Shown: piece after piece, positions 15,369 through 30,896 of the stretch
How the letters are laid out: each line of letters opens with the position of its first letter
Position numbering within the stretch: position 1 is the stretch's first letter
Assembly: GCF_902762735.1 (NCBI RefSeq)
Contig: NZ_CACWPP010000005.1
Location: 18,100 to 82,099, forward strand
Direction of reading: 5' to 3'
DNA from: an uncultured Ruminococcus sp.
GTDB taxonomy: Bacteria; Bacillota; Clostridia; Oscillospirales; Ruminococcaceae
DNA length: 64,000 bases
Notes under the pieces: model-generated
Databases searched by the model: none
The model's input: only the letters and a program-made list of their open reading frames with translations
Told to the model about the DNA's origin: nothing
Translations under genes and position numbers: made by a program

Positions 15369-16799
15369 ATGAAAAAGACTAATATTTACGCAGCTATGAT
15401 AGCAATTACAATGGTATTCTCTCTGGCATCATGCGCAGAGGTCGCAGTAAGCAGTGACAACACAGCAGAAACAACAGCACAGACCTCAGCATTCGTTTCC
15501 ACCGAAAACATTTCGGGCGAAAAGGCGGCGGCGGGCGAGACCGAGACTGCTGATGCGGAGATAAGATCGGCGGCGGGCGAGACCGAGACTGCTGATGGGG
15601 AGATAAGATCGGCAGTGACCGATGATGGTGACAGTCTTGATATAGTATCAGCGTCATTTGAGGGCAGCACAACGGGCATGCTTGACACGGCTGACATGTT
15701 CAGCGAAAGGGACCTTGAACAGACAGCAGATGTTTCTGAGGCTGAGTACATCACTGTCAGCAGTAATGACACCATAAGCATAACAGACGGCGGCGTTTAT
15801 GTGATAAGCGGATCGGCTGAAAACTGCACCATCAGGGTAGAGGCTGACAGTCAGGAGAAAGTTCAGCTGGTGCTGGACGGCGTTTCCATCACGAACGGGG
15901 ACTTCCCTGCGATATATGTTGTAAGTGCCGACAAGTGCTTTATCACCACAGCTGAGGGCAGCGAGAACAGCCTTTCGGTAACGGACAGCTTTACTGCTGA
16001 TGCTGACACCAACACTGATGCGGTCATATTCTCAAAGGACGACATAGTGCTGAACGGGCTAGGTGTGCTGAACATCTCATCGGCTTACGGCAACGGCATT
16101 TCGGGCAAGGACGATGTAAAGTTCACGGGCGGAAGCTGCAATATCACCTCAGCACTTGATGCTGTTGAAGCCAACGACTCGATACGGATTTGCGGCGGCA
16201 CGTTTGATATTGTTTCAAGTAAAGACGGTCTGCACAGCGAGAATGACGAGGACGACTCGCAGGGCTGCATCTACATAGCGGGCGGCACATTCTCGATAAA
16301 TGCAAAGAGCGATGCTGTACAGGCGACGACCATCGCGCAGATAGACGGCGGCAGTTTCGACATCACCGCAAGCGAAGGCATAGAGGCTACCTACGTGCAG
16401 ATAAATGACGGCACTATAAACATAACCGCATCTGATGACGGCATAAACGCCACAAGCAAAAGTACTGCATACGATGTTGCGATAGAGTTCAACGGCGGCT
16501 ATACCACGATCGTCATGGGACAGGGCGACACTGACGGAGTAGATGCCAACGGTTCGATAATAGTAAACGGCGGCACTATTGATGTTACGGCTCAGATGTC
16601 CTCATTCGACTATGACGGCACTGCCGAATTCAACGGCGGCACGATAATCGTCAACGGCGAAGAGGTAAGCGAGATTCCCGTTTCGATGATGGGCGGCGGC
16701 ATGGGCGGTCACGGCGGCATGATGGGCGGCGAGATGCAGGAAGGCATGCAGTTCGGCGGACGCGGCGGCAGACACAGCGAGATGTATTCGGTGACATAA
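15369..16799 (+). CDS. Surface lipoprotein with Cthe_2159-like beta-helix, carbohydrate-binding
   Basis: 476 aa. The lipobox is LASC (Cys22). A low-complexity linker contains two near-identical 14-residue units (AAGETETADAEIRS / AAGETETADGEIRS). The body (about 125-440) is made of short repeating turns such as GGTFDIVSSKDGLHSENDED and GGSFDITASEGIEA, rich in Asp, Asn and Gly, as in the calcium-binding right-handed beta-helix Cthe_2159 family that binds acidic plant polysaccharides. The C-terminus is Gly/Met/His-rich (MMGGGMGGHGG). CGAGG precedes the ATG. A polysaccharide adhesion role is inferred from the family; no catalytic motif is seen. Confidence 0.8.
   Translation: MKKTNIYAAMIAITMVFSLASCAEVAVSSDNTAETTAQTSAFVSTENISGEKAAAGETETADAEIRSAAGETETADGEIRSAVTDDGDSLDIVSASFEGSTTGMLDTADMFSERDLEQTADVSEAEYITVSSNDTISITDGGVYVISGSAENCTIRVEADSQEKVQLVLDGVSITNGDFPAIYVVSADKCFITTAEGSENSLSVTDSFTADADTNTDAVIFSKDDIVLNGLGVLNISSAYGNGISGKDDVKFTGGSCNITSALDAVEANDSIRICGGTFDIVSSKDGLHSENDEDDSQGCIYIAGGTFSINAKSDAVQATTIAQIDGGSFDITASEGIEATYVQINDGTINITASDDGINATSKSTAYDVAIEFNGGYTTIVMGQGDTDGVDANGSIIVNGGTIDVTAQMSSFDYDGTAEFNGGTIIVNGEEVSEIPVSMMGGGMGGHGGMMGGEMQEGMQFGGRGGRHSEMYSVT
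15527..15610 (+). repeat. Two tandem 42-bp repeats inside the lipoprotein linker
   Basis: 15527-15568 and 15569-15610 are identical except for one base (GATGCGGAG versus GATGGGGAG). The unit is 42 bp, so each adds 14 residues in frame to the linker between the lipid anchor and the beta-helix. Confidence 0.9.
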
Positions 16800-17543: not shown

Positions 17544-18593
17544 TTAGTTTGCAAGACCTGATTTCTCGATACCTTCGACGAAGTATCTCTGGAGAAATAC
17601 ATACATTACCAGTATAGGTGTTATTGACAGCAGACAGCCTGCTTCCAGCCAAACGATGATCTGACGAACAGATACCGACTGACCGTCGAACAACTGCTGT
17701 GTCAGGTTTGTATTCAGGTTCTTCAGCATCAGCGCAACTGTGTCGTTGTTGGTAAAGAATGAGCTGGATACATAGTAGTCGTTCCAGTACCACACGATGG
17801 AGAACAGGAATACTGTAAGGAAAGACTGTCTTGCGTTTGGTATCATTATCTTCACGTAGGTGTAGAGAGGTGAGCAGCCGTCAAGGTAAGCTGCATCTTC
17901 CAGTTCCTTAGGCAGTCCTCTGAAGAACTGACGGAATATGAAGATGAACAGACCTGCTCTGATACCGTTTGCGAACAGTGCGGGCAGATACATTGTCCAT
18001 GGGCTGTTTATCAGCGATGTGGACTTGCCCAGTGTGAATATCTTCGCTAAGAATGCGGGCTTGAAATAAGCAAACTGCATGTACAGCGGGATAGTTGTGA
18101 TCTGCGGCGGCACGATTATCATCATAATAACAACGCCGAACAGTAAATTCTTGCCCTTGAACTTAAATCTTGCGAAGCCGTAGCCTGTTATCGAGCAGGT
18201 AGCCACCTGTAAGATCGAAGCCACGAGGTTCAGGATTATGGTGTTTACCAGTGTCTTATCGAACTTCATAACGCCCCATGTCTGCTTTACGTTATCCATC
18301 GTAAAGCTCTTGGGTATCCAGATGATAGAGGGGTCATTCATCTGCTCACTGGGTCTGAACGCTGTTGAAAGCATAAAGATCAGCGGATAGAGGATTATGA
18401 AGCACAGACCGAACAGTATCAGAAATCTGAACACGGGCCATACAGCACCGATCACTCTCTGCCTTCTGTTATACTTGATCTGGTCGGGAGTGAGGAACTT
18501 TTCGAGACCGATCTCTTTCATGCGCTTCTGACGCGCTTTGACAGCCGCTTTACGTTCCTTTTCAAACTGCTTTTCTTCTTTTTTAGTCGCCAC
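17544..18593 (-). CDS. Carbohydrate ABC transporter permease, MalG-type (distal pair)
   Basis: 349 aa. A long charged N-terminal tail (about 50 residues, KKEEKQFEKERKAAVKARQK) precedes six transmembrane helices. The EAA coupling loop reads ELEDAAYLDGCSPLYTYVKI with MIPNA following, as in MalG/UgpE-type permeases of the CUT1 family that form a heterodimer with a MalF-type partner and contact the ATPase. Its partner is the gene 12 bases upstream (18606-19559). It ends the ten-gene locus. Substrate is unknown; the charged tail is longer than usual. Confidence 0.85.
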   Translation of the reverse strand: MATKKEEKQFEKERKAAVKARQKRMKEIGLEKFLTPDQIKYNRRQRVIGAVWPVFRFLILFGLCFIILYPLIFMLSTAFRPSEQMNDPSIIWIPKSFTMDNVKQTWGVMKFDKTLVNTIILNLVASILQVATCSITGYGFARFKFKGKNLLFGVVIMMIIVPPQITTIPLYMQFAYFKPAFLAKIFTLGKSTSLINSPWTMYLPALFANGIRAGLFIFIFRQFFRGLPKELEDAAYLDGCSPLYTYVKIMIPNARQSFLTVFLFSIVWYWNDYYVSSSFFTNNDTVALMLKNLNTNLTQQLFDGQSVSVRQIIVWLEAGCLLSITPILVMYVFLQRYFVEGIEKSGLAN

Positions 18594-18605
18594 TTCTATC
18601 CCCCC

Positions 18606-19559
18606 TTACTCAACTTCGTAGTAGATGACCTTATTCAGTATGGCAACGATGATCGCAAGGCAAACACCGATTATCGCGAAGTAAGCCCACGCCATAGCCG
18701 CTGAATATCCGTGATCCCAGTTGGTAGACTTGTTAAGAACTATGGTCATTACCTTGTTGCCAGGGTCAACGAAAGAGTCAACAACAGTATAAACAACGCT
18801 TGCGAGTATCATTGGGCTGATCGTAGGAAGTGTGATCTTCCAGAAGAATTCCCAAGATGTTGCGCCCTCCATCTGCGCCGCTTCTCTTGATGCGGGCGAG
18901 ATGCCCTGGAGAGCCGCCAGTATCAGAAGTATCTGTATACCAGAGTTCCACACCAAGTTGAAGATGTCGGTAGTCAGCGAATTGATGATGCTGGACAGCT
19001 TGTCACTGATGTTATAGATGCCCAAGAAATTCAGCAGCTGGTCAACGAGGTTAGCCTCGAACATGGTGCTGAACTGCTCGGAACCGCCCGAGTAGCCGCC
19101 TGTACTCATGTTGCCGTTGATGATGTCCATTACAGGACCCGTTGCGATGATAACAGGCAGGAAGAATACCGCTCTCGCGAAAGTTCTTCCCTTGAACTTC
19201 TGGTTAAGTACAAGTGCGATGAATATGGAGAATATGATTATCAGAGGAGTCCTCAGCGCGGTGTTTTTTAGCATATCCACCAGCGCCAGCGAATAGTCCT
19301 GATCCTTACGGAAGGCATTCACGTAGTTCTTCCAGCCGATGTACTTCATCTCCATGCCGCCAGGCTGTACTTTGGTCTCATTGAACGAGTAGATAAGCGA
19401 CTCGATCAGAGGGAATATGAAAAAGTAGATAGTGCCCAGCGCCCACAGTGCTATAAAGCCGTAGCCATAGAGACCCTTTCTTCTTTCATAGGAGAGTCTG
19501 TGCTTTTTCTCAGCCTTTGCAGGCGATGCGGCGGTAGTGTTCTTTTCGGTATCGCTCAT
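18606..19559 (-). CDS. Sugar ABC transporter permease, MalF-type (distal pair)
   Basis: 317 aa, about six transmembrane helices. The cytoplasmic EAA loop reads SREAAQMEGATSWEFFWKIT followed by LPTISP, typical of MalF/UgpA-type permeases. The loop at about 140-190 (GNMSTGGYSGGSEQFSTMFE) is long and would face outward. The ATG overlaps the DUF5696-like stop by one base (TAATG). It pairs with the following MalG-type permease, making this the second permease pair in one locus, transcribed after the accessory genes. Confidence 0.85.
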   Translation of the reverse strand: MSDTEKNTTAASPAKAEKKHRLSYERRKGLYGYGFIALWALGTIYFFIFPLIESLIYSFNETKVQPGGMEMKYIGWKNYVNAFRKDQDYSLALVDMLKNTALRTPLIIIFSIFIALVLNQKFKGRTFARAVFFLPVIIATGPVMDIINGNMSTGGYSGGSEQFSTMFEANLVDQLLNFLGIYNISDKLSSIINSLTTDIFNLVWNSGIQILLILAALQGISPASREAAQMEGATSWEFFWKITLPTISPMILASVVYTVVDSFVDPGNKVMTIVLNKSTNWDHGYSAAMAWAYFAIIGVCLAIIVAILNKVIYYEVE

Positions 19560-21940
19560 TATCTCAGACCTCCTTCAATACAATTTTCAATGCTGACGTT
19601 CCTGCCGTCAACAGAAGCTGTTGCTTCTTCCTTGTTAACGACCACGACAACGTCTTTCTGACCGTCCTTTGAATAAGTTGTGGTGAACTCTTTGCCGTCG
19701 GCGCTTACCTCATACTTGCTGATGGTGTAGTCGCCCAGACCGTTCAGCAGTTCGTTTTCAGCCTTGAACTGGTTAGCCGCAGCATCAGTCCAGCCCTTAT
19801 AGTTGGTATAATACAGCTTATTATAGTCTGTATCCTGCAGAACATCGCTGTCTGCATAAGTGAAATCGTAGTGTATCTGCGAGCCCGAAGCCAATGCCAG
19901 CATGAATGTCTCATCAGTATTGGAGCTCTTGTTGATAGCGCTTGAGGAATAAGGCACATAGCCGTGCAGCACCATCTGATAGAACGGAATATCGAAATCT
20001 GTCAGGTCAAATCCGCTGGACGATACGGGCACTCCTGTAACCGTAGAAACATAAGGCAGAACGTAAGCGTTAGCCTCATCAGCTATCAGTGAACCGATGG
20101 CTGACTGAGCTTTCTGATAGTTCTCCACCACAGTATTCATGGTCTTGTTTCTGGAGTAGGTATCCTTTCTGGTGTAATCGCCCACCAGTCTTGACGAGAA
20201 CATGCCGAAGCCTGCGTTCTTGATGCCCTTATCGCCGAAGCTCTCGGTTATCTCTTCAAAGGTATCCTGATACTTGCTGGGTGACAGCAGTGCAGGCGCA
20301 ACGCCCTTCTGTGCAACGCCGAAGGACAGACTGTAAGATGACTGTCTTGAATAAGCGTTGGAGATCCTTATGGCTGTACTGGTCAGTGTCCAGTAGCCCG
20401 CGCTGGACTTATTCATTGTGAAGTTGTTGAGCGACGGGTAAACGGTAACGCCTTCGGTGCCGATGAAGTCCATCATATCGCCCTTGCCGCCCAGTGTGCC
20501 CGAAGGCTTGAATCCTGTGGAGATATTGCCTTTGATAGCGGCATTTGTCCAGTCATTATAGTTTACAGTGAAGCCGTTCACGCCCTTGCCTTTCAGCTCT
20601 TCAACTATCTCGCCTGCCTGGTCGAAGCCTGTTATCTCAGTTTTCAGGTTGAAAGGCAGACCCAGTATCGAAGTTCTTTTCAGCACGCCGCCGTACATAT
20701 CGAGGTACAGCTGATTATTGGGTGCAGCCTGCTGTTTCAGACCCTTTTCGTTTATCAGATAATTTCTGTAAACCTCAGCACAGTCAGCGTAATTCACCAT
20801 ACCGCCGTCCTTTGAAGCGACGGGGTAGTAGTGTATGCCGAAGCGGTCGGTCTTGATGCCGTCTTTCTCGAAAACGTTCAGCTTATTGGCGCTGTCACCG
20901 CTCATAAAGAACGCATCTGACGAACGAGTTTCAAACTCGAAGTAGCAGTTGTTGTACACCTGCTTGTTTTGACCGCTGACCTGTGCCCTTGCGTACACGT
21001 TTGAATCGCCGTCAGTGACCACCGCAACTATGCCTGCGCTGCCGTATACCGTACTTATCACCGGCAGATAAGCCTGCTCGGTAACTCTCGGTGCGGTCAG
21101 GGGGACCATTGTGTAGTCTCTGCCGTATATCTGCTGTACGTAGTCGGGGTAGTTGCCCTTGCCGTTATTGTAGTTTATGACAGCGCCGCTGCCATCGGGG
21201 ATTATCATATAGCCCTCAGTGGGGTTGCCCTCGTAGTCTACCGAAGGAGTTGCCGCAAAATAGGGGCAAAGCTGTAACTTTGTGAGTATCTTGCCGTCAA
21301 CGGTCGAGATATTGTCCTCTTTTATCTCTGCGGTATCGACATAGACATAAAGGCTGTCCTCGCAGAGTTCATAGTGGACATCGAACTCAACGCCCTCTGA
21401 TTTATAGTCATAGTGTATGACCGCGCCTTTATCGTTGGTCTTCCACTTGACCTTTGCCTTGTTTGAGTAAACAGGTGCAGCGGACTCCGTCCTCTTCTCC
21501 TGTCTCAGGTCGCCGACTTTTATTGCGCAGCTGGAAGCGATCTGCTTTCTCAGTGCTGTTTTCATCATATCGCCCTTTTCAGGGTCTACGACAATATCAT
21601 CGGCAAATACATTGATAGGTGAAGTCCACCAGTACTTGTCTGTTTCTTTTACATAAAGACCGAGTCTTCCGTTCTCTTCGTCGCCGTAGAGAATGAATTT
21701 GTCGTTCTCGCTGAGCTTTTCTGCCATATCGGCAGCCTGCTCATTACTGATCTTATCGGGGAGCTTATCCTCATCATCGGAGGTAGCCGCATCATCAGAA
21801 ACAGTCTCTTCGACAGTTTCCTCGACCGCCGCAGTATCCTCTTCGGCATCTGCCGAAGTGACTGCCATAGAACCCAGAGGTGTCAGCATTGCAAGACACA
21901 AACCAAAGACAACAGCTTTTTTATAACTTTTGTTTGCCAT
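19559..21940 (-). CDS. Large secreted DUF5696-like protein
   Basis: 793 aa. A signal peptide (hydrophobic 8-30, ending SADA) is followed by an acidic linker and a large exported region. Conserved-looking parts include GRLGLYVKETDKYWWTSPIN, EGYMIIPDGSGAVINYNNGK, and in the C-terminal half a TIM-barrel-like segment (VNGFTVNYNDWTNAAIKGN; DIPFYQMVLHGYVPYSS). I recognise it as DUF5696, a family found beside ABC sugar transporters and with a glycosidase-like barrel, but no proven activity. No transmembrane anchor is evident at the C-terminus. It lies between the Yip1 gene and the second permease pair. Confidence 0.75.
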   Translation of the reverse strand: MANKSYKKAVVFGLCLAMLTPLGSMAVTSADAEEDTAAVEETVEETVSDDAATSDDEDKLPDKISNEQAADMAEKLSENDKFILYGDEENGRLGLYVKETDKYWWTSPINVFADDIVVDPEKGDMMKTALRKQIASSCAIKVGDLRQEKRTESAAPVYSNKAKVKWKTNDKGAVIHYDYKSEGVEFDVHYELCEDSLYVYVDTAEIKEDNISTVDGKILTKLQLCPYFAATPSVDYEGNPTEGYMIIPDGSGAVINYNNGKGNYPDYVQQIYGRDYTMVPLTAPRVTEQAYLPVISTVYGSAGIVAVVTDGDSNVYARAQVSGQNKQVYNNCYFEFETRSSDAFFMSGDSANKLNVFEKDGIKTDRFGIHYYPVASKDGGMVNYADCAEVYRNYLINEKGLKQQAAPNNQLYLDMYGGVLKRTSILGLPFNLKTEITGFDQAGEIVEELKGKGVNGFTVNYNDWTNAAIKGNISTGFKPSGTLGGKGDMMDFIGTEGVTVYPSLNNFTMNKSSAGYWTLTSTAIRISNAYSRQSSYSLSFGVAQKGVAPALLSPSKYQDTFEEITESFGDKGIKNAGFGMFSSRLVGDYTRKDTYSRNKTMNTVVENYQKAQSAIGSLIADEANAYVLPYVSTVTGVPVSSSGFDLTDFDIPFYQMVLHGYVPYSSSAINKSSNTDETFMLALASGSQIHYDFTYADSDVLQDTDYNKLYYTNYKGWTDAAANQFKAENELLNGLGDYTISKYEVSADGKEFTTTYSKDGQKDVVVVVNKEEATASVDGRNVSIENCIEGGLR

Positions 21941-21960
21941 TTTTACACCACCGTTTCTAA

Positions 21961-22590
21961 TTAGCCTCGGATCCTATATGCGATCTCAGTGTAGATCTGA
22001 TAAATGAATACATAGACCTGCTGGAACAGCGAAAGCAGAAGTATCGCCAAAAACAGTATCAGCAGCATCGCTACCAATGTCAGCACCATCGAAATGAGGG
22101 TCTTGCCGAACGAATACTGGTGGCACGCTCTCATCGCCTGTATCATCAGCACGATGGACCAGCCAAATCCCAGATAGGTCAGTGCAGTGATCCATATGGA
22201 CTCTTCCTGCACAAGGAAATTCGAGAATATTACTTTTATCAGTGTGCATACTATGTAAGGCACAAGTGAATAAGCGGAATATATGCTTATCTTCCTGAAA
22301 GTGCCTTCGCCTTCCAGCAGTGTGCATATCGACCAGTTGCCGACGCACCATGTAAAGTAGTATACCACCGACTGGACTATCAGCGGAACAACATTGAAGA
22401 TCTTGACATAATTGTTGTTGAACTGGAAGCCTGTCAGCTGTCTGTCAGCCACCATCGCAACGAACAGGAAGAATACGATTATCAGGGAGATCTTCACCGA
22501 GCCCTGTTTCTTCCATCTGAGATCCTCAAATCCTTCAACAGGATGGAAGATACAATGTTTCAGCCAGCCTACGGGTGTAAATTCATACAT
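21961..22590 (-). CDS. Yip1 family membrane protein
   Basis: 209 aa with five hydrophobic helices. The N-terminal IFHPVEGFEDLRWKK sequence is the typical start of bacterial Yip1-domain proteins, and the last helix pair carries many Leu/Ile. Yip1 proteins have no defined bacterial biochemistry. The gene starts 3 bases from the NHL-TPR gene stop and is followed at 20 bases by the DUF5696-like gene, so it belongs to the same transcript. Confidence 0.75.
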   Translation of the reverse strand: MYEFTPVGWLKHCIFHPVEGFEDLRWKKQGSVKISLIIVFFLFVAMVADRQLTGFQFNNNYVKIFNVVPLIVQSVVYYFTWCVGNWSICTLLEGEGTFRKISIYSAYSLVPYIVCTLIKVIFSNFLVQEESIWITALTYLGFGWSIVLMIQAMRACHQYSFGKTLISMVLTLVAMLLILFLAILLLSLFQQVYVFIYQIYTEIAYRIRG

Positions 22591-22593
22591 AGT

Positions 22594-24198
22594 TTATCTT
22601 CCCCCCCTATTTCTTGACTTTTTGCCGTACAGTCTGCCCTTGAGCAGGTACTTGCCTTTCTTATGCATCTTTGACAGCACGAACAGGAACACGATGATGA
22701 CTGCCAGCACGATTATGATGAGAGTGAAGTTCTCTCTCAGGAACTCTTCTCTTGCGTACTTGAACGCTCTGTCGTAGTCGTCCTGATCGTAAGCGGTCTT
22801 AAAGTAATCCAGCGCCTTGCTGTACTCGCCCTCATTCAGGGCTGCCTTGCCAAGACCGATATACGCCATCGGGTAGCCGCCGTCTCTTGCGATAACGTTC
22901 TGCCAGATGGGTTTTGCTTCGGAATATCTGCCCTGGTCGTAAAGTTCAACAGCCTCGTGCATCAGCGCACCGAATGTTGTTTCGGAATAGATGGTAACAT
23001 CGTTCTTTGAACCGTCTATTACGTAGATATTGTTGTTATAAGCCTCAACTGCATTGGGGTTTGAGAAACTTCCTCGCTGGTCGTTGGTAGAGTTCTTTGT
23101 ACCGAAGATGCAGAGGAGTCTTGCATTTCTGTCATACTGGAAAACTCGTCCCGTTGAGAAGTCCAGCACGTTTATCAGACCGTTATCAGCCACGCAGATG
23201 TCGGTCAGTCTGGTAGAGTAGGTCTGGTTCTGGGTCGGGTCGTACTCGGAAGCCATATCACCGAACTTATACTCATTGCCCGCTGAGTTATCCCAGATAT
23301 TATAGCCTGCGGGGTTCAGCTTCTTTACCGCGTCCGTGGTGGTGTTAGCCGCTTCGGTAACGGTATAGATGAAGCCGCCTTCGTCGATGTCGAAGTTTGC
23401 ATACTCAACAGGAACGTTTCTTGTCATACCCGAGATCTGCTCGTTCGACGCGAACTTTCTCCAGAGTTTCTGTGCGATAACAGCAGCTGTTACCTCAACG
23501 CGGTTAGCGCCGTAGTAGCCCTGGAACTTGCCTGAACGGTTGAACTGCACCGCACCCTGGTTTACAGAGGTACAAACTGCATACACGTTCTCGGCAAAGT
23601 CTGCAACGACTTTAGAGGGGTTGAATGTCTCGACCGTGTACAGGTCGGTATCAGGTCTTGTATACTCCTGCACCATTTCCAGTTCGTGGTCATTTTTGAC
23701 AGCCGCTTTCACGACTCTTGAATTCTCATAATCTGCGATGTAGATGTAAAGGGGCTTGTCGTCATACAGGCTTCTCTTCACATACACGCCTGAAGGGGAA
23801 GCGAAGCGGCTTCCGTCGGACAGTTCTGCGTAAGCGCCGACGAGTTCCAGCTTATCGTTCAGTCTGAGGATACGGTTGTTATCGGTATCCGCTATCCAGA
23901 ACTCCTTCTCATCGGGGTCGAAGTACATATCCTTGGGGTTTGAGAGCCTTGCCGATGCATTCTCGCCCATAAACAGCGGGTCGGCAGGGTCTGAGAGCCT
24001 GCTCAGTCCCATATCGTAGCCTGTAACTGTCTTGTCGATACGGTATGCGTTCTGCGAGGGTATCGAGTCGTTCCAGGTATCGTAGATGTAGGACTTGTAA
24101 GGCTCAGCTGCGAAGGCTTCCAGCGTCATCGACACAGCGGCGACTGCTGCCAGTCCTGCGCAGAGAATTTTCTTAAAAGAATTTTTTATTCTCAACAC
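22594..24198 (-). CDS. Exported NHL-repeat and TPR protein with C-terminal transmembrane anchor
   Basis: 534 aa. A signal peptide (to about residue 30, AFA) leads into an NHL-type beta-propeller (about 75-410); repeats such as SNPKDMYFDPDEKEFWIADT DNNRI, ASPSGVYV, and DICVADNGLINVLD are visible. Two TPR-like helical hairpins follow (about 415-485, AVELYDQGRYSEAKPIW; LGKAALNEGEYSKALDYF), then one transmembrane helix (about 492-512) and a basic cytoplasmic tail. This places propeller and TPRs outside and a tail inside. The start is GTG with AAAGGTG seven bases upstream. It could be a sensor or an assembly scaffold for the neighbouring transporters (inference). Confidence 0.8.
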   Translation of the reverse strand: MLRIKNSFKKILCAGLAAVAAVSMTLEAFAAEPYKSYIYDTWNDSIPSQNAYRIDKTVTGYDMGLSRLSDPADPLFMGENASARLSNPKDMYFDPDEKEFWIADTDNNRILRLNDKLELVGAYAELSDGSRFASPSGVYVKRSLYDDKPLYIYIADYENSRVVKAAVKNDHELEMVQEYTRPDTDLYTVETFNPSKVVADFAENVYAVCTSVNQGAVQFNRSGKFQGYYGANRVEVTAAVIAQKLWRKFASNEQISGMTRNVPVEYANFDIDEGGFIYTVTEAANTTTDAVKKLNPAGYNIWDNSAGNEYKFGDMASEYDPTQNQTYSTRLTDICVADNGLINVLDFSTGRVFQYDRNARLLCIFGTKNSTNDQRGSFSNPNAVEAYNNNIYVIDGSKNDVTIYSETTFGALMHEAVELYDQGRYSEAKPIWQNVIARDGGYPMAYIGLGKAALNEGEYSKALDYFKTAYDQDDYDRAFKYAREEFLRENFTLIIIVLAVIIVFLFVLSKMHKKGKYLLKGRLYGKKSRNRGGR

Positions 24199-24242
24199 TA
24201 CTTATCACCTTTTTCCTTTTCATGTCTCATGTCGGATACTTA

Positions 24243-25142
24243 TTAATCCTTCATACCGGAATTTGCCATTGTCTCCATAACGTTGCCCTGAGCGATCAGG
24301 AATACCAGCAGCGGAGGAATGAGCAGTACAACGCTCGATGCGAAGGTAACGCCCTGACGGGCAAGGCCTGCCGCAGAGATCTGCTGTACGACAGTAGGTA
24401 GTGTTTTGAGTTCTTCGGAGTATGTCAGTGCGCCGCCCTGCATGTTCCATGCGCCCTGGAATGCGAATATCACCAGTGTCATAAGAGCGGGCTTGGAGTT
24501 GGGGACGATTATCTGCCAGCATATCCTGAAAAGGCTCGCACCATCGACTTTTGCAGCCTCTACCATAGCATCGTGTATGGTAGACATGGACTGTCTCATA
24601 AGGTACAGACCGATCGAAGTGGAGATGCTGGGGAGTATCAGTGCCCAGTAGGTATCTATCATGTGCAGCTTAGCCATTACCATGAACTGCATGATCCATG
24701 TAGCGTTGGATGCGAACAGCAGTGCAAGCACGATGATCTGGTTGATGATCTTATCACCCGGGAACCTGCACTTAGCCAGTACGAATGCCGCACAGCAGCA
24801 CACGAAGAGGTTCGCAGCGCAGATAACGATGGTGATGAAGAAGCTGTTGAAGATATATCTTGACAGCGGCACCTGCCATGAGTTCGCCGCAACTCTGAAC
24901 ATATCCGAGAAGTTTCTGCCTGTCGGGTTTATAACATACAGTTTCGGCGGGAACACGAAAAGTTCCTCAACAGGCTTCAGCGACTGTATCACCGAATAGT
25001 ACAGCGGGAATACCATGAATGCACCCAGAAGCACTAAGAATATGAAAATGCACACATCGCCTGCACGGGAGCCGTTGATAGGCTTCTTGTTGGCAGACAC
25101 TTTGAGCTTTTCGATAGACTGCTTTTTTCTTCTTCTAGCCAT
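24243..25142 (-). CDS. Carbohydrate ABC transporter permease, MalG-type (proximal pair)
   Basis: 299 aa, six transmembrane helices. The EAA loop reads HDAMVEAAKVDGASLFRICW then IIVPNSKPALM, as in CUT1 MalG-type permeases. The N-terminus is basic (RRRKKQSIEKLK). It directly follows its MalF-type partner (18-base gap) and the solute-binding protein. AAGGGGGGAATAT precedes the ATG. Substrate unknown; context suggests an oligosaccharide. Confidence 0.87.
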   Translation of the reverse strand: MARRRKKQSIEKLKVSANKKPINGSRAGDVCIFIFLVLLGAFMVFPLYYSVIQSLKPVEELFVFPPKLYVINPTGRNFSDMFRVAANSWQVPLSRYIFNSFFITIVICAANLFVCCCAAFVLAKCRFPGDKIINQIIVLALLFASNATWIMQFMVMAKLHMIDTYWALILPSISTSIGLYLMRQSMSTIHDAMVEAAKVDGASLFRICWQIIVPNSKPALMTLVIFAFQGAWNMQGGALTYSEELKTLPTVVQQISAAGLARQGVTFASSVVLLIPPLLVFLIAQGNVMETMANSGMKD

Positions 25143-25160
25143 TTGAAATATTCCCCCCTT

Positions 25161-26096
25161 TTAATCAAGATACTTGCCAAGTATCCAGTTGACACCTTTA
25201 TTGGCAAGGAGCATCGCAGCGAACAGCACGAAGCATATCGCAGACGAGTAGCCCATCTCATAACGCACCCAGCCGTAGTCGGTAGCGTGGTTCATTATGG
25301 TATGTGCTGCGTAATCGGTGGAAGGCAGACCAACGAGGTTCTGACCTACCATGCCGACTGTGAACGAAGTTGAGATCTGCATAACGGCAGCGAACAGCAG
25401 CTGGGGTCCCATCGAGGGGATAGTGATCTTGAAAAGTTCCTGCCATCTGTTCTTGATGCCTTCGATAGCACCAGCCTCGTACATCGACTTGTCGATATTC
25501 TGGAAGCCTGCACGTATCGCAAGGAAGCCTGCGCCCATCGACATCCACAGCTGCACGATGATAACGACTGTCAGTATGTACTTGGTATCGGTTATCCACT
25601 GTGCAGGGGATTTGAGTATGCCCAGATCCATCAGCACAGCGTTAAGGTAGCCGTAGGAGTCGCCCGAAAGTATCAGCTGCCATGTGACATATACCGATGT
25701 GGTCATCGAAGGTGCATAGAATACGAATGTGAAGAATGTTTTCAGGAATGCGTTCATCTCATTTATCAGCCACGCTATCAGGAAGCTGAGAACGTAGGAG
25801 AACGGACCTGTGAAGATCGCGAATATCAGGGTATTTCTGACTGCGATCAGGAATACGTCGTCGTTTACGAACAGTGTGTAGAAGTTTGACAGACCTACCC
25901 ATTTGGGCATCTGTATCATGTTGAAGTTGGTAAAGCCCATAGGCAGGGACATTACAACGGGTACTACCGTGAAGATGATAAAGAAGACCATGAAAGGAAT
26001 GAGCATGAAGTAGCAGCCCTTATTCGCTTTCATCATGTGCCAGGTATAAGCCCATCTGCCCTGTTTATTCATAGGACCTTGTGATTTTTTAGCCAT
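25161..26096 (-). CDS. Sugar ABC transporter permease, MalF-type (proximal pair)
   Basis: 311 aa, six transmembrane helices starting after a basic N-terminus (MAKKSQGPMNKQGRW). The EAA loop is KSMYEAGAIEGIKNRWQELF followed by KITIPSMGP, matching MalF/UgpA-type permeases. It lies between the solute-binding protein (17-base gap) and the MalG-type gene. AAAGGAGAGTG precedes the ATG. Confidence 0.87.
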   Translation of the reverse strand: MAKKSQGPMNKQGRWAYTWHMMKANKGCYFMLIPFMVFFIIFTVVPVVMSLPMGFTNFNMIQMPKWVGLSNFYTLFVNDDVFLIAVRNTLIFAIFTGPFSYVLSFLIAWLINEMNAFLKTFFTFVFYAPSMTTSVYVTWQLILSGDSYGYLNAVLMDLGILKSPAQWITDTKYILTVVIIVQLWMSMGAGFLAIRAGFQNIDKSMYEAGAIEGIKNRWQELFKITIPSMGPQLLFAAVMQISTSFTVGMVGQNLVGLPSTDYAAHTIMNHATDYGWVRYEMGYSSAICFVLFAAMLLANKGVNWILGKYLD

Positions 26097-26113
26097 AACA
26101 CACTCTCCTTTCC

Positions 26114-29053
26114 TTAGTCTAATCCGAGGTCTTCACGCTTACGTGTGATCTCGTCGTTGATGTCCTTATTGTACCAGAACAGGGTATCTCTTGCATTCTC
26201 GCTGTCGTTTACAACGCTTCTGAATGCGTTCATTACGTTTCTTGTTACGCCGTAAGAAGCGGGGATTATCGGTATCTCTACCTGTGCATTCATCTGATCC
26301 AGCAGCAGGTCGGCTTCCTTCGTTGTCCATGAAAGACCTCTCAGAGCCTCCTGGTTAGCGGTGGAGTAACGACCCATAGGACCGAGTACAGATTCGATGT
26401 TATTGCCGTACTTCATCTGTGTATCAGCACTTGTGAACCACTTGATGAAGTCCCATGCAGCCTGATGGTCGGGTGCTTTCTTGAATATAACGCAGCACTG
26501 ACCCTCTGAGTTTGCGGCGTGGTTGAGGTTGCCGTTCTCATCAAAAGTACCCGGAACTGCCCTGAACGACCAGCAGCCCTTTATTTCGGGAGCGGCAGCA
26601 GTCAGCTGGTTGTAGAACGAGTAGTCGTTGACCAGCACGGGCATATCGCCCTGTCTGAAACGAGTGAATGCGTCATAAGTCTGTTCAAAGCTGTATGTGG
26701 TATAGAACTTTGTCCAGGTATCGAAAGCGTTGATAGCTTCCTGAGTATCGAAAGTAGTTTTCTTCTGGTCGGCAGTGTAGTAGTTGAGACCCTGCTGAAG
26801 CACCATCATAGCGAAGGTGTTGCCGTTCTCGGTAACAGCCGATACCATTGTAACGCCCGCACTTGCGGTAGCGGGAAGTCTGAGACCGACTTCGAGGTAA
26901 TTTCTCTGGAGAGTAGGCAGGCAGTTGATTATCCTGTCCCACGATACCAGGTCATATTCGGGGTCTATGCCGTACTCTGCGAGTATATCCGATCTGTAAA
27001 ACAGCATTGGGAAGTTCTGTGTGCAGGGCAGGCCGTAAACGCCGCCGTCGTAGGTATACAGGGTCATTATATTGGGTGCGAACCTCTGTATGGTCTCCTC
27101 ATAATCGGGGAACTGAGTGATGTCCACCAGCGTATCTCTTACCGCCAGCTGGATCGGGTAGTCGCCGCCCAGGAAGAGCGCCATATCGGGACCTTTGCCC
27201 GAGAATGTAGCCTCAGTGATACCGCCCTGTACCAGTTTGAGGTTGATCTTGGAATTTGCAGTCGCATTATAGTCGCTGTCTATCAGTTCCTTGATAACTA
27301 CGGCGTTATCGCGTCCGAGAGTTATCCAGCACTCCTGTGCGGCAGCATCTTCATCGTTTGAAAGCGAGTTGTAATCCTCAAAGAACGAGCCGATGAAGGA
27401 CTGGAAACCATGTCCCACAGTACCGAAGAAAGAGGTGTCGCATTCAGAGAACGAAGTGTCATCCGAGCAAAGCTCTATCTTATCCACCTCAAGGGGCTGC
27501 ATTCTGTAAGTATTTATAAAGGTCGAAACCGCAGTAATGTTATCCTTGATCTGTCCCATCATTTCAGGGATTATATCAGGCTTCTTCACACATTTGTCAA
27601 GTACGATCGCCATTTTTTCCAGCGTTTCAGCCTCTGTTCCGCCTGAGCCTGAAAGACGCTCGATCTCTTTTTTCTCCTGTCTGAGCAGCTTTGCGTTATA
27701 CTCAAAGTCGCCGAGAATATCGGGGATAGCAACATCTATCATATAGTTGTTGTACTCATCGGGAGAAGGACCTGTGATCTGTCTGATCTGGCGGTAGTAG
27801 CTGTTGATGTCGAAAACAACATCGTCCAGCTCGCCCATGATCTCGCCGATCTCACCCGGCACTGCTTCGAGAGTCAGTGTATTGGTGCCTGCCTCAAAGA
27901 AGAACAGCATGGGGTTGCCTGCCTTATTGGAGGGTGATACAACGCTCCAGTCGGTGTCGTAGTAGAACTTGATCTGCTCCGACTCCTTATTCGGCACTTC
28001 GCCGTTTATGTACAGTCTTCTGTTGGAGTACATGCCTCGCATCTGATCCTGTCTGCCGAAGATGCCTATTTTATAGTAGCCTGCCTGAGGAACGTTGAAT
28101 TCCCATGTGACAGACTGTGTTGACTGGTTCCAGTTATTGCCGCCGCCTATGGTATTATACCTTGTTTTGGTGGGGCTGTAACCCTTGGAGCTGGAAGTCA
28201 TGTAAGAAGTCTTATCCGATGTGGGGTAGAGCGTTCTCGATGACTTAAAGTTTGCAGTTTCGCCCTCAAGTGTTATCATCTGCCCTTTCAGCTGTGAAAC
28301 ATCGTTTGCAGAAGGGGAGTCATACTCCTTAGGCTCTTTATAATTGTATACCTTGATGTCGCCCAGCACGAACTGTGCCTTATCCGAATCGAGGGTCAGC
28401 ACATGTTTGCCCTCAGTCATAAAGAACTGCAAAGGCTCATTATACAGACCGTCAACATCGGCTATGGGCTTATCCATCTGCCACGTCGGGAACTCTACCT
28501 GTCCCGGGCGCATATCGTTGCCCTTAGCGTCCTCGCCTATATCGCCGTCGTTGACCCATACCTTATCAAGTGTGATACGCTGAGCCGTGCCGTAGGGGCT
28601 TTCACCGTCTATCAGCAGCGAGAACTCAATATCATTGGTAGTGCCGGGCAGTGCGTAGTAGGACATTTTCAGGTTATATCTGCCGTCCTGAGGGATATTC
28701 ACCTCATACGATACAGAGCCTTGCTGGTTTGCCCAGTACAGCACATCATCGACACCCTCAAAGCTGGTATCAGTACCCAGAACAAGTTCAGAGCTGACCG
28801 AGTCAGGTATATAATCCGAGCCTTTTATAACTATCTCGTCGATATTCGGTCTTGCAGTATCCGCATACTTCTCAAGATATTTGCTGTAAGAAGTCTGTCG
28901 TATGCTGTCAGTACCTGTCAGCGAATCCGAGCTGTCGTTCTGGGTGTCCAGAGAGTTGTCTTTGTCTGCAAAAGCCGTCGGAACAAAACAGCTGACACTC
29001 AGACTGAGTGCAACAGCAGAGCAGACAACACGCCTAAACATTGTGTTTTTCAC
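26114..29053 (-). CDS. Giant extracellular solute-binding protein with two N-terminal carbohydrate-binding-like modules
   Basis: 979 aa from the GTG at 29053, which has AAAGGGTGG eight bases upstream; the frame also opens at 29065 but without a spaced site. The signal peptide ends ...FVPTAFA. Two beta-sandwich modules like CBM6/35 follow (about 60-245, VLYWANQQGSVSYEVNIP; about 260-430, TLEGETANF ... WEFNVPQAGYYKIGIFG), then a helical spacer (about 430-545) and a periplasmic-binding-protein type 1 domain (about 590-979, DMALFLGGDYPIQLAVR; GVYGLPCTQNFPMLFYRSD; EGQCCVIFKKAPDHQAAWDF). Ordinary sugar-binding proteins are 400-450 aa, so the fusion is unusual. There is no clear lipobox. It is followed by its permease pair. 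Confidence 0.83.
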   Translation of the reverse strand: MKNTMFRRVVCSAVALSLSVSCFVPTAFADKDNSLDTQNDSSDSLTGTDSIRQTSYSKYLEKYADTARPNIDEIVIKGSDYIPDSVSSELVLGTDTSFEGVDDVLYWANQQGSVSYEVNIPQDGRYNLKMSYYALPGTTNDIEFSLLIDGESPYGTAQRITLDKVWVNDGDIGEDAKGNDMRPGQVEFPTWQMDKPIADVDGLYNEPLQFFMTEGKHVLTLDSDKAQFVLGDIKVYNYKEPKEYDSPSANDVSQLKGQMITLEGETANFKSSRTLYPTSDKTSYMTSSSKGYSPTKTRYNTIGGGNNWNQSTQSVTWEFNVPQAGYYKIGIFGRQDQMRGMYSNRRLYINGEVPNKESEQIKFYYDTDWSVVSPSNKAGNPMLFFFEAGTNTLTLEAVPGEIGEIMGELDDVVFDINSYYRQIRQITGPSPDEYNNYMIDVAIPDILGDFEYNAKLLRQEKKEIERLSGSGGTEAETLEKMAIVLDKCVKKPDIIPEMMGQIKDNITAVSTFINTYRMQPLEVDKIELCSDDTSFSECDTSFFGTVGHGFQSFIGSFFEDYNSLSNDEDAAAQECWITLGRDNAVVIKELIDSDYNATANSKINLKLVQGGITEATFSGKGPDMALFLGGDYPIQLAVRDTLVDITQFPDYEETIQRFAPNIMTLYTYDGGVYGLPCTQNFPMLFYRSDILAEYGIDPEYDLVSWDRIINCLPTLQRNYLEVGLRLPATASAGVTMVSAVTENGNTFAMMVLQQGLNYYTADQKKTTFDTQEAINAFDTWTKFYTTYSFEQTYDAFTRFRQGDMPVLVNDYSFYNQLTAAAPEIKGCWSFRAVPGTFDENGNLNHAANSEGQCCVIFKKAPDHQAAWDFIKWFTSADTQMKYGNNIESVLGPMGRYSTANQEALRGLSWTTKEADLLLDQMNAQVEIPIIPASYGVTRNVMNAFRSVVNDSENARDTLFWYNKDINDEITRKREDLGLD

Positions 29054-29172
29054 TATTGAATCCACCCTTTCTCAAAATGTAGTGTGTGTAAAAAGCCTGA
29101 GATCCTCACTGCTTTTCCGACCGCTCGTGTGTCACAAAAGTATTAGATCCCATTTATCTCAAGCCCTGAGGC

Positions 29173-30120
29173 TCAACGATCCTGATCTTCGGAGGGGAAC
29201 AGCACTATGCTGCCCCTTTCCTTATCAAGCTCCACCTTGACCTTGCCGCCGCCCTTTATGCCCAGCGACTGCATATATTCTTTCGGAAGCTGCAATCTGC
29301 CCGATCTGTCCAGCACTGCCAGCTCTTCATGGGTGGCTTCCTCTTTCGAGATGACCTCGCCCATCTCATTCAGATCCTCTGCGTAAGAACGCTTCCTTAT
29401 TATTTCCGAGCTTGTGCGCCCGTCCCTTATGGCAACTACCCTGTCTATATGGTCAGCCAGCTTCAGGTCATGGGTGACTATCACCACCGTCACGCCCTCG
29501 CTCTTATTCAGCTCCTTAAAAATATCCAGTATCATCGCCGATGTTTTCGTATCCACCGAACCCGTAGGTTCGTCTGCAAGCAGCAGCTTTGGGTCATTCG
29601 CCATAGCTATCGCTATCGCCACCCTTTGCTGTTCGCCGCCCGACATCTGGTCGAGCCTGCTGTTTTTCCGCTTTTCAAGACCCACCTTTTTCAGCAGTTC
29701 CAGCGCCCTTGCGCGTCTGCCTTTTCTGCCTTTGAGGATCATCGGCAGTTCCACATTCTGCACTGCCGTAAGGTAAGGCACGAGGTTGCGCGCATTGTTC
29801 TGCCACACAAAGCCGACAGTATCGCGCTTATATTCCATATAGTCCTTGTCTGTGAATTTCAGCATATCTTTGCCGTCTATCACCAGACTGCCCGCCGACG
29901 GTCTGTCAAGGCCGCCCAGCATGTTCAGCAGCGTTGATTTGCCGCTGCCCGAGTTCCCGACTATCGCCATAAGCTCGCCCCGTTTTACATCAAGGTCAAG
30001 CCCCTGGAGTGCCACAGCCTCCACATCAGAAGTTTTGTAAATTTTCACCAGGTTCTCACAGCGTATCATGTATTCATCATTGGCAGGCTTTACAATAGTA
30101 TCAGCATCAGTTTCAGCCAA
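29173..30120 (-). CDS. LolD/MacB-type ABC ATPase with C-terminal SpoVT-AbrB-like domain
   Basis: 315 aa. Walker A GNSGSGKST, signature MSGGEQQR, Walker B LLLADEPTG and switch THD are all present, and the VELPMILKG insert is typical of LolD/MacB-type ATPases rather than MalK-type. Residues about 265-310 add a swapped-hairpin-like segment, LAVLDRSGRLQLPKEYMQSL followed by GIKGGGKVKVE, that resembles AbrB/MazE DNA-binding or dimerisation domains. The TTG start overlaps the upstream ATPase by 8 bases; an ATG at codon 18 is an alternative. A 119-base gap separates it from the solute-binding protein. No FtsX/MacB permease is near, so it may energise the MalFG-type pairs. Confidence 0.83.
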   Translation of the reverse strand: MAETDADTIVKPANDEYMIRCENLVKIYKTSDVEAVALQGLDLDVKRGELMAIVGNSGSGKSTLLNMLGGLDRPSAGSLVIDGKDMLKFTDKDYMEYKRDTVGFVWQNNARNLVPYLTAVQNVELPMILKGRKGRRARALELLKKVGLEKRKNSRLDQMSGGEQQRVAIAIAMANDPKLLLADEPTGSVDTKTSAMILDIFKELNKSEGVTVVIVTHDLKLADHIDRVVAIRDGRTSSEIIRKRSYAEDLNEMGEVISKEEATHEELAVLDRSGRLQLPKEYMQSLGIKGGGKVKVELDKERGSIVLFPSEDQDR

Positions 30121-30790
30121 CTATCTCACCGTCCTCCAGTGTGTAGACCTTGTCCGCAACGTCCATCATGCTTGGATCGTGGGTGGTCATTATGATAGTC
30201 ATGTTCTGCTTCGCCACAAGCTCTTTAAACAGCTTGACGATATGCAGAGCGGTGTTCGTATCAAGTTCGGCGGTAGGTTCATCAGCAAAGATGAGTCTCG
30301 GTTCGTGCGCTATCGCCCTTGCGATGGCTACGCGCTGCTGTTCACCGCCCGACATCTCGCTTGGACGGTGGGTCATGCGCTTGTCAAGTCCCACAGCCGC
30401 CAGACATTCCCTTGTGCGTTCATCGCGTTTGTCGTAGGGGTACTTTGCCAGTCTCAGCCCGAAGCTGACGTTCTCAAAGGCGGACATACCCGACATCAGC
30501 GCCACCGACTGGAACACGAATGCCATATCGTGTCTGCGCAGATCATCCCGCACACCCTCGGACAGTTTTGTAATATCCTTTCCGTCGAACAGCACTTTGC
30601 CCTTTGTAGGGCGGTCAAGAGCGCCGAGGATATTTATAAGAGTGGTCTTGCCGCTGCCCGAACGGCCTCGCAGGACAGTCAGCCTGCCTTTTTCGATCTC
30701 GATATTAACATTTTTCAATGCGGAAACCACGCTGCCGTCACCTATCTTAAAGTCACGGTACAGCCCTTCCGTTCTGAGTATCACGTCCAC
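30113..30790 (-). CDS. LolD/MacB-type ABC ATPase
   Basis: 225 aa from the GTG at 30790, which has GGGAGGGTG six bases upstream and gives the usual LolD length; the frame extends to 30883 without support. Walker A GRSGSGKTT, signature MSGGEQQR, Walker B LIFADEPTAELD and switch TTHD are intact, so it should bind and hydrolyse ATP. It is the first gene of the ten-gene locus and overlaps the second ATPase by 8 bases, suggesting a heterodimer. Sequence type is that of lipoprotein or peptide exporters, not sugar importers. Confidence 0.87.
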   Translation of the reverse strand: MDVILRTEGLYRDFKIGDGSVVSALKNVNIEIEKGRLTVLRGRSGSGKTTLINILGALDRPTKGKVLFDGKDITKLSEGVRDDLRRHDMAFVFQSVALMSGMSAFENVSFGLRLAKYPYDKRDERTRECLAAVGLDKRMTHRPSEMSGGEQQRVAIARAIAHEPRLIFADEPTAELDTNTALHIVKLFKELVAKQNMTIIMTTHDPSMMDVADKVYTLEDGEIVG

Positions 30791-30849: not shown

Positions 30850-30896
30850 TCACATCTTGTGATATATTAAATATACCGAACACAACATGCTGTGTT
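30850..30896. promoter_or_regulatory. Cluster of three inverted repeats in the leader of the ten-gene locus
   Basis: TCACATCTTGTGA (30850-30862, five-base arms), GATATATTAAATATACC (30861-30877) and AACACAACATGCTGTGTT (30879-30896, 16 of 18 bases symmetric) follow each other about 90-135 bases downstream of the promoter. They could be repressor operators or RNA hairpins; no regulator gene is adjacent. Confidence 0.4.

Follow-up and report, generated by a model that had tools for sequence, protein, structure and literature searches.

Which ATPase powers a sugar importer whose operon opens with two ATPase genes of another kind? The question is raised by a ten-gene locus at positions 17544-30790 of the window analyzed here, a stretch of 64,000 nucleotides from an uncultured Ruminococcus sp. 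(contig NZ_CACWPP010000005.1, positions 18,100 to 82,099). All ten genes lie on the minus strand with small gaps or overlaps, in the 5'-to-3' order ATPase-A, ATPase-B, a giant solute-binding protein (SBP), the permeases F1 and G1, an NHL propeller-TPR protein, a Yip1-family protein, a DUF5696 protein, and the permeases F2 and G2. An earlier sequence-only reading had described this arrangement largely accurately and had taken it for a surface system that captures and imports a glycan, with the two ATPases as the motor of both MalFG-type permease pairs. The capture and import function is supported by the evidence below, while the proposed motor is not. We consider it likely that one transcript combines an oligosaccharide importer, powered by an MsmX-type ATPase, with the ATPase genes of a MacAB/YknXYZ-like exporter that are parted from the rest of that exporter.

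RESULTS

The ATPase pair and its probable FtsX partner

With 225 amino acids (aa; positions 30113-30790) and 315 aa (29173-30120), respectively, ATPase-A and ATPase-B are of the LolD/MacB type, as the earlier reading had it: LolD is the best NCBIfam model of both (211 and 226 bits, below the model cut-off of 308), LolD and MacB chains are among their best PDB matches, and the Walker A, signature, and Walker B motifs of both are intact by eye. ATPase-B carries near its C terminus (residues 271-310) a MazE/AbrB-like stretch (PF04014, 26.1 bits), a tail that is, to our knowledge, unusual for an ATP-binding cassette (ABC) ATPase and that can also be seen by eye in the ATPase-B of the exporter cassettes of other families.

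These cassettes were found through homologues of ATPase-B with 51-60% identity, which occur in 11 of 398 genomes of the phylum, all 11 from other families; in each of the ten regions fetched (10 of the 11 genomes), ATPase-B or ATPase-A adjoins a gene for an FtsX permease. Seven regions (L111, L112, L114, L115, L118, L119, and L120) encode ATPase-A, an adaptor of 337-376 aa, FtsX of 938-974 aa, and ATPase-B, and L117 has the order adaptor-FtsX-A-B; the other two, in which ATPase-A was not seen, lie near contig ends and read FtsX-B (L113) and adaptor-FtsX-B with FtsX in two open reading frames (ORFs) (L116). Pfam detects FtsX together with HlyD-type or biotin-lipoyl domains in all four cassettes scanned (L111, L114, L115, and L117).

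Within the family, permease and pair go together. In a first test (E 1e-10), a search with an alignment of four cassette FtsX proteins found the permease in all 14 genomes that carry the pair and in none of the 3 that lack it. Among 148 family genomes, ATPase-B (E 1e-63) was found in 24 and FtsX (E 1e-50) in 25, the permease being present in 24/24 genomes with ATPase-B and in 1/124 without it (Fisher p 9e-27, a value that ignores kinship). Another 50 genomes, which represent 50 of the 80 loci fetched through F1 and overlap the other sets (G617 is G099; G569 and G570 were already in the first test), contained ATPase-B in 25 cases and FtsX in 24, with agreement in 49/50. Each positive genome had one ATPase-B match. 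The genome of the window itself encodes an FtsX protein of 985 aa with two FtsX stretches on a different contig (G000:C152:507-3464), so that the earlier statement that no MacB/FtsX permease is present holds for the window and fails for the genome. No ABC ATPase ORF lies on that contig, and the FtsX model matches LolC weakly (E 2.4e-5). The 506 bases upstream of this gene (L205:1-506) look repeat-rich by eye and may represent an insertion or an end of the assembly.

Permease and motor genes of this family often lie apart. An HlyD-like adaptor gene adjoins FtsX in 13 of the 14 loci fetched from pair-bearing genomes (L206-L218, the exception being our own L205), and ten of these loci (L206-L208, L210-L215, and L218) lie away from the importer. 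The fetched stretch holds no ABC ATPase ORF in eight of the ten (L206-L208, L210, L211, and L213-L215), and the ORFs present in the remaining two encode 544 aa on the opposite strand (L212) and 1033 aa (L218). In 7 of the 9 family genomes that have ATPase-B without a full-length DUF5696 gene, FtsX lies 0.7-0.8 kb from ATPase-B, a spacing that leaves room for ATPase-A; where ATPase-B and full-length DUF5696 are both present (15 family genomes), the two are on one contig in 14. The adaptor and FtsX genes directly follow G2 in Ruminococcus bicirculans (L217) and in G065 (L216), and in G044 (L209) one GH26 gene (glycoside hydrolase [GH] family 26) stands between. A single transcript of importer and adaptor-FtsX is not implied in R. 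bicirculans, because a terminator-like hairpin and promoter-like sites separate G2 from the adaptor gene.

Sugar permeases and their docking features

The four MalF/MalG-type permeases, F1 (25161-26096), G1 (24243-25142), F2 (18606-19559), and G2 (17544-18593), were confirmed by Pfam- and NCBIfam-type matches; F2 has UgpA/MalF-type matches in NCBIfam and none in Pfam at E 0.001. F1 and G1 carry the EAA motif, and G1 and G2 end in SGMKD and KSGLAN, which resemble the MalG tail that reaches into the MalK dimer. In Bacillus subtilis, MsmX-dependent uptake of arabinotriose is impaired when AraQ is deprived of its four C-terminal residues, which form a MalG-type tail, and also when alanine replaces the EAA-loop aspartate D213 of AraP or, to a lesser extent, D180 of AraQ (PMC5730181).

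These features were compared on a midpoint-rooted tree of the four permeases from 95 loci, 44 with the ATPase pair and 51 without. Parsimony places four changes in pair presence on this tree, most simply read as one gain and three losses, and the pair-less lineages keep the importer with all four permeases. Two of the pair-less loci, L091 and L128, stand singly, with weak support at some nearby nodes, and the arabinan-type locus L039 falls outside the clade; neither ATPase-B nor FtsX was matched in the genomes of the two single loci (G103 and G575), absences that are less sure because G103 is 88% complete and G575 is a 1.5-Mb metagenome-assembled genome (MAG). Loci with and without the pair diverge no more in the EAA coupling loops than in the rest of the proteins, the mean Jensen-Shannon values for loop and rest being 0.124/0.138 in F1 (p 0.28 for lower), 0.099/0.169 in G1 (p 0.017), 0.079/0.184 in F2 (p 1e-4), and 0.070/0.179 in G2 (p 2e-4); this is an absence of change, not a proof, because the loops are conserved anyway and the pair-less group is mostly one clade. 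The strict EAA pattern is found in F1 of 44/44 loci with the pair and 50/51 without, and in F2 of 44/44 and 49/51. The C-terminal tail of G1 is of the MalG type in 44/44 and 51/51 loci, whereas that of G2 conforms to the shorter pattern [STAG]G[VIML] in 127/128 loci and to the stricter one in 26/44 and 18/51.

A candidate motor is at hand. All 35 genomes searched have a MalK-type match at E 1e-50, in 34 of them with at least 425 bits, which speaks against the idea, favorable to the LolD-type motor, that pair-bearing genomes lack MsmX; the best match in G049 (75% complete), with 217 bits and 46% identity, is ambiguous. The sequence-only reading had conceded that a MalK/MsmX-type ATPase encoded elsewhere and proven to drive both permease pairs would undo its proposal; such ATPases are present, with four genes in this genome, one of them in a paralogous arabinan operon, and may drive these permeases.

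A conserved eight-gene core and its likely substrates

The combination of genes is not due to chance, since, among the 152 loci annotated, 103 show the complete core SBP-F1-G1-NHL-Yip1-DUF5696-F2-G2 on a single strand and in unchanged order. This bears out the suspicion in the earlier reading that similar clusters exist in other Firmicutes. The 152 loci comprise 60 anchored on DUF5696, 80 anchored on F1, the window, the paralogue, and the ten ATPase-B regions; the core loci were all fetched through similarity to the operon genes, many are partial, and some repeat one genome, so their counts show gene order and not frequency. Nor are they independent, the same genome being represented by L054/L127, L044/L134, L053/L135, L096/L187, and L047/L164. 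Twelve further loci have seven core genes and no separate Yip1. Where both neighbors were recognized, they lie no more than 600 bases apart in 126/129 cases for SBP-F1, 134/134 for F1-G1, 111/112 for NHL-Yip1, 130/131 for DUF5696-F2, and 127/128 for F2-G2. DUF5696 itself scores above the cut-off in 55/148 family genomes and at E 1e-60 in 41/398 phylum genomes.

The core most likely imports plant-cell-wall oligosaccharides that differ between loci, a reading of the gene neighborhoods that rests on an arabinan-type paralogue and on the glycosidase genes that follow G2. The same genome holds a second core (C1:14997-26194) with a second SBP and with NHL and Yip1 fused, in a cluster of the arabinan type (G000:C1:9877-33030, L033/L034) that has its own MalK-type ATPase of 391 aa with MalK OB and TOBE domains. 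By Pfam, the second core is flanked by three GH43 genes, an alpha-L-arabinofuranosidase, an L-arabinose isomerase, and an AraC-type regulator. The slot after G2 was occupied by an ORF in 101 loci, of which 65 ORFs were scanned with Pfam; among the best 25 of 69 families, we counted GH95 (10), SBP_bac_1 (7), SBP_bac_8 (6), GH26 (5), GDPD (5), GH31 (2), and one each of GH36, GH2, GH30, GH130, GH5, and a phosphorylase.

Exported and membrane partners

The SBP (983 aa; 26114-29065) has a signal peptide ending in AFA and no match to the lipobox pattern, a loose form of which is matched by 9 of 132 homologues. Its predicted structure (pLDDT 86.7) comprises putative beta-sandwiches at about residues 60-250 and 260-402, a helical spacer (404-521), and a MalE-like fold from about 526 to 983. 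The match to SBP_bac_8 (84.5 bits) identifies it as the SBP of sugar-binding fold in the operon, and the whole model finds ordinary MalE-like matches in the PDB. The giant size noted by the earlier reading is thus correct, whereas its two carbohydrate-binding-like modules are less firm, consisting of one CBM35 match of 26.3 bits, under the Pfam cut-off of 28, and the two modeled beta-sandwiches.

The DUF5696 protein (19559-21940) has a signal-like N terminus and a predicted beta-sandwich plus TIM barrel. The model, built from 62 sequences (pLDDT 87.7), has as its best Foldseek match the GH129 enzyme ZgGH129 (5opq; E 1.7e-25, TM-score 0.67 by target and 0.57 by query), followed by NagBb (5wzq; E 3.2e-20, TM-score 0.74), and would have the GH129 fold over most of its length. 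Despite the similar predicted fold, identity to the GH129 proteins (5opq and 5wzq/5wzn) is just 10-13%, the sequence profile matches ZgGH129 weakly (E 0.13), and Pfam (E 0.001) places the operon protein in DUF5696 alone. Across 133 homologues, the residues D588 and D249 are conserved in 94% and 97%, respectively. The best profile match in the PDB, a designed repeat protein (25 residues, E 1.3e-4), was judged spurious.

The domain scan also confirmed the NHL and TPR domains of the protein at 22594-24198, in which a signal-like N terminus and a C-terminal transmembrane segment can be discerned by eye, and the Yip1 domain of the membrane protein at 21961-22590, as it did DUF5696. The two form one protein in 14 loci (the paralogue in this genome and 13 others) and two proteins in 112, and we take the fusion to argue that they act together. 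Core loci of genomes without ATPase-B or this FtsX (for instance, L042, L043, and L048) still have Yip1, and the simple view of Yip1 as an exporter marker, modeled on YknW, was rejected.

Operon signals and neighborhood

The promoter named in the earlier reading, TTGACA-17-TATAAT on the minus strand at 31020-30992, matches the sigma-70 consensus at 12/12 positions and has TG before the -10 element. ATPase-A starts, as that reading had also stated, with GTG at 30790, preceded by GGAGGGTG with a ribosome-binding site; the start of the longest ORF, at 30883, was rejected in its favor. Behind G2, at about 17500-17473 on the same strand, a hairpin followed by TTTTGCT is a probable terminator, which was seen by eye and is absent from the program-made terminator list. 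Judging from promoter, gaps, and hairpin, the ten genes probably form one transcript. Judged by F1, Ruminococcus MAGs and R. bicirculans 80/3 (89% identity) are the closest named relatives, followed by R. flavefaciens and R. callidus; the genome of the window would accordingly belong to Ruminococcus or its close kin, in the phylum Bacillota.

Convergent with the operon, a gene at 15369-16799 encodes a Cthe_2159-type carbohydrate-binding protein (PF14262, 266 bits). None of the ten operon neighbors scanned in the window is a glycosidase gene, and the sole Rfam match in the window is an ordinary S10-Clostridia ribosomal leader (RF03136, 54965-55045) outside the operon.

DISCUSSION

The importer resembles the CUT1/MalFGK-type systems energized by the multitask ATPase MsmX, such as AraNPQ of B. 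subtilis (PMC5730181): its permeases, of the MalF/MalG type, have EAA loops and a MalG-like C terminus, the operon has no MalK-type gene, and MsmX/MalK-type ATPases are encoded elsewhere in the genome. It differs from them in several respects: (i) two permease pairs share one operon; (ii) the 983-aa SBP has no lipobox and carries extra beta-sandwich modules; and (iii) NHL-TPR, Yip1, and DUF5696 proteins are its partners. The proposed exporter, for its part, would resemble B. subtilis YknWXYZ (PMC4887032), which combines a LolD/MacB-type ATPase, a separate FtsX/MacB-type permease, and an adaptor of the HlyD kind with YknW, a member of the Yip1 family that reportedly modulates how YknXYZ is assembled. 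In contrast to that system, the ATPases are two different proteins, of which one has a MazE-like tail, the permease of about 920-1000 aa has two FtsX stretches, the ATPase genes are parted from it, and Yip1 is encoded within the importer core, also where ATPase-B and this FtsX were not found. LolCDE and MacAB have the ATPase sequence family in common with A and B, which, however, score below the LolD model cut-off and are two different ATPases. MacB combines ATPase and permease in one chain, unlike A and B. The importer is probably a new form of the MsmX-dependent CUT1 system, and the exporter a form of MacAB/YknXYZ.

Some of what weighs against assigning the pair to the exporter also speaks for the model of the sequence-only reading, in which a LolD-type heterodimer of A and B is the dedicated motor of both MalFG-type pairs. 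The pair stands at the operon head, directly upstream of the SBP gene, in 45 core loci (L115, scored as a 46th by script, has a separate cassette, and L085, with its SBP split over two ORFs, is outside the 46 and inside the 44 pair-bearing loci of the tree), and the operon has no MalK-type gene. Were the pair to serve FtsX only, it would be expected to stay beside FtsX, yet FtsX and ATPase-B are less than 20 kb apart in just 2/15 family genomes and 5/24 F1-fetched genomes. G093 has FtsX (G093:C27:18752-21604) without an ATPase-B match, and G611 has ATPase-B without an FtsX match; no adaptor gene was found on the 506 bases upstream of FtsX in our own genome, which was not searched for adaptors as a whole. 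Kinship was left uncorrected, and 48 of the 51 loci that lack the pair belong to a single clade within the pair-bearing ones. The strict EAA pattern is found in G1 of 34/44 loci with the pair and 47/51 without, and in G2, whose loop reads EDAAYLDGC, of 0/44 and 1/51. Finally, some members of the clade have FGLRL, which resembles MalK, in the Q-loop region of ATPase-A; we did not use it as a sign of sugar-permease driving, because this stretch reads FALRL or LSLRL in other pair-bearing members and FSLRL in the cassette member L117. Set against these points, 83 core loci lack the pair, 11 of them unjudgeable with less than 1.5 kb upstream of the SBP, and the importer was kept through what are most simply three losses of the pair, with no change in its coupling loops or MalG-type tails, in genomes that possess MalK-type ATPases. 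A and B are probably not sugar-permease motors, because their homologues in other families adjoin FtsX, FtsX is, almost without exception, present with the pair and absent where the pair is absent, and the MalK/MsmX docking features are unchanged with or without it; sugar permeases with LolD motors are unlikely, and a motor dedicated to both pairs appears highly improbable.

Only slightly less improbable is a shared heterodimer that drives the FtsX exporter and, in the manner of the multi-importer ATPase MsmX, one or both sugar permease pairs as well. This would suit the single ATPase-B match per positive genome, nearly always accompanied by FtsX, and the fact that ATPase-B adjoins the importer in all but one of the 15 family genomes in which full-length DUF5696 is present too, but the importer persists without A and B with the same loops and tails, and we know of no described ABC ATPase that serves both FtsX-type and MalFG-type permeases, although no search was aimed at this point. 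A mere ride of the ATPases in the importer operon, with no functional link to glycan uptake, is suggested by the stand-alone exporter cassettes of other lineages and by the adaptor-FtsX genes of R. bicirculans, which have their own promoter-like sites and are preceded by a terminator-like one; the linkage of pair and importer is nevertheless retained across deep branches of the tree, although FtsX varies in position, and we give a chance neighborhood very little credence. The preferred reading remains an importer powered by an MsmX/MalK-type ATPase and, on the same transcript, the parted ATPases of an exporter, in which A and B would pair with FtsX as proteins.

Under this preferred reading, the secreted giant SBP would capture a plant-cell-wall oligosaccharide through its beta-sandwich modules and MalE-like domain, and the exported GH129-like DUF5696 protein may trim or hold the glycan outside the cell. 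The NHL-TPR and Yip1 proteins could form a membrane scaffold that holds the nonlipidated outer parts at the permeases, the role of Yip1 being suggested by analogy with YknW. F1/G1 and F2/G2 would import two products or two size classes, both energized by a shared MsmX/MalK-type ATPase encoded elsewhere, while a heteromeric A/B would serve an exporter whose FtsX, and in relatives HlyD-like adaptor, is also encoded elsewhere. Placed at the head of the importer operon, the ATPase genes would tie the motor supply of the exporter to glycan uptake, a possible reason for the linkage of import and export. A closer bond, in which the importer and the MacAB-like exporter form a single machine for glycan acquisition and their joint work locks the ATPase genes to the importer, is doubtful, though less so than the alternatives weighed above. 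If it were true, A/B, adaptor, and FtsX would work on the surface complex of the importer or by way of it, perhaps in mechanical loading or release of the giant SBP and the GH129-like protein, and A/B might also lend power to one sugar permease pair.

To conclude, this locus is a probable case of an ABC exporter whose ATPase genes have left their permease and stand under the promoter of an importer, so that reading transport partners off the operon would give the wrong motor. The earlier statement that no function has been described is borne out as far as the literature was searched: no paper on DUF5696 or on this operon in R. bicirculans was found, and searches for the cluster, judged from the entries listed, gave nothing that looked relevant. 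Widespread as it is in the phylum, and with a predicted GH129-like exported protein among its members, the eight-gene core may serve Gram-positive bacteria of the gut and rumen as a general importer of glycans.

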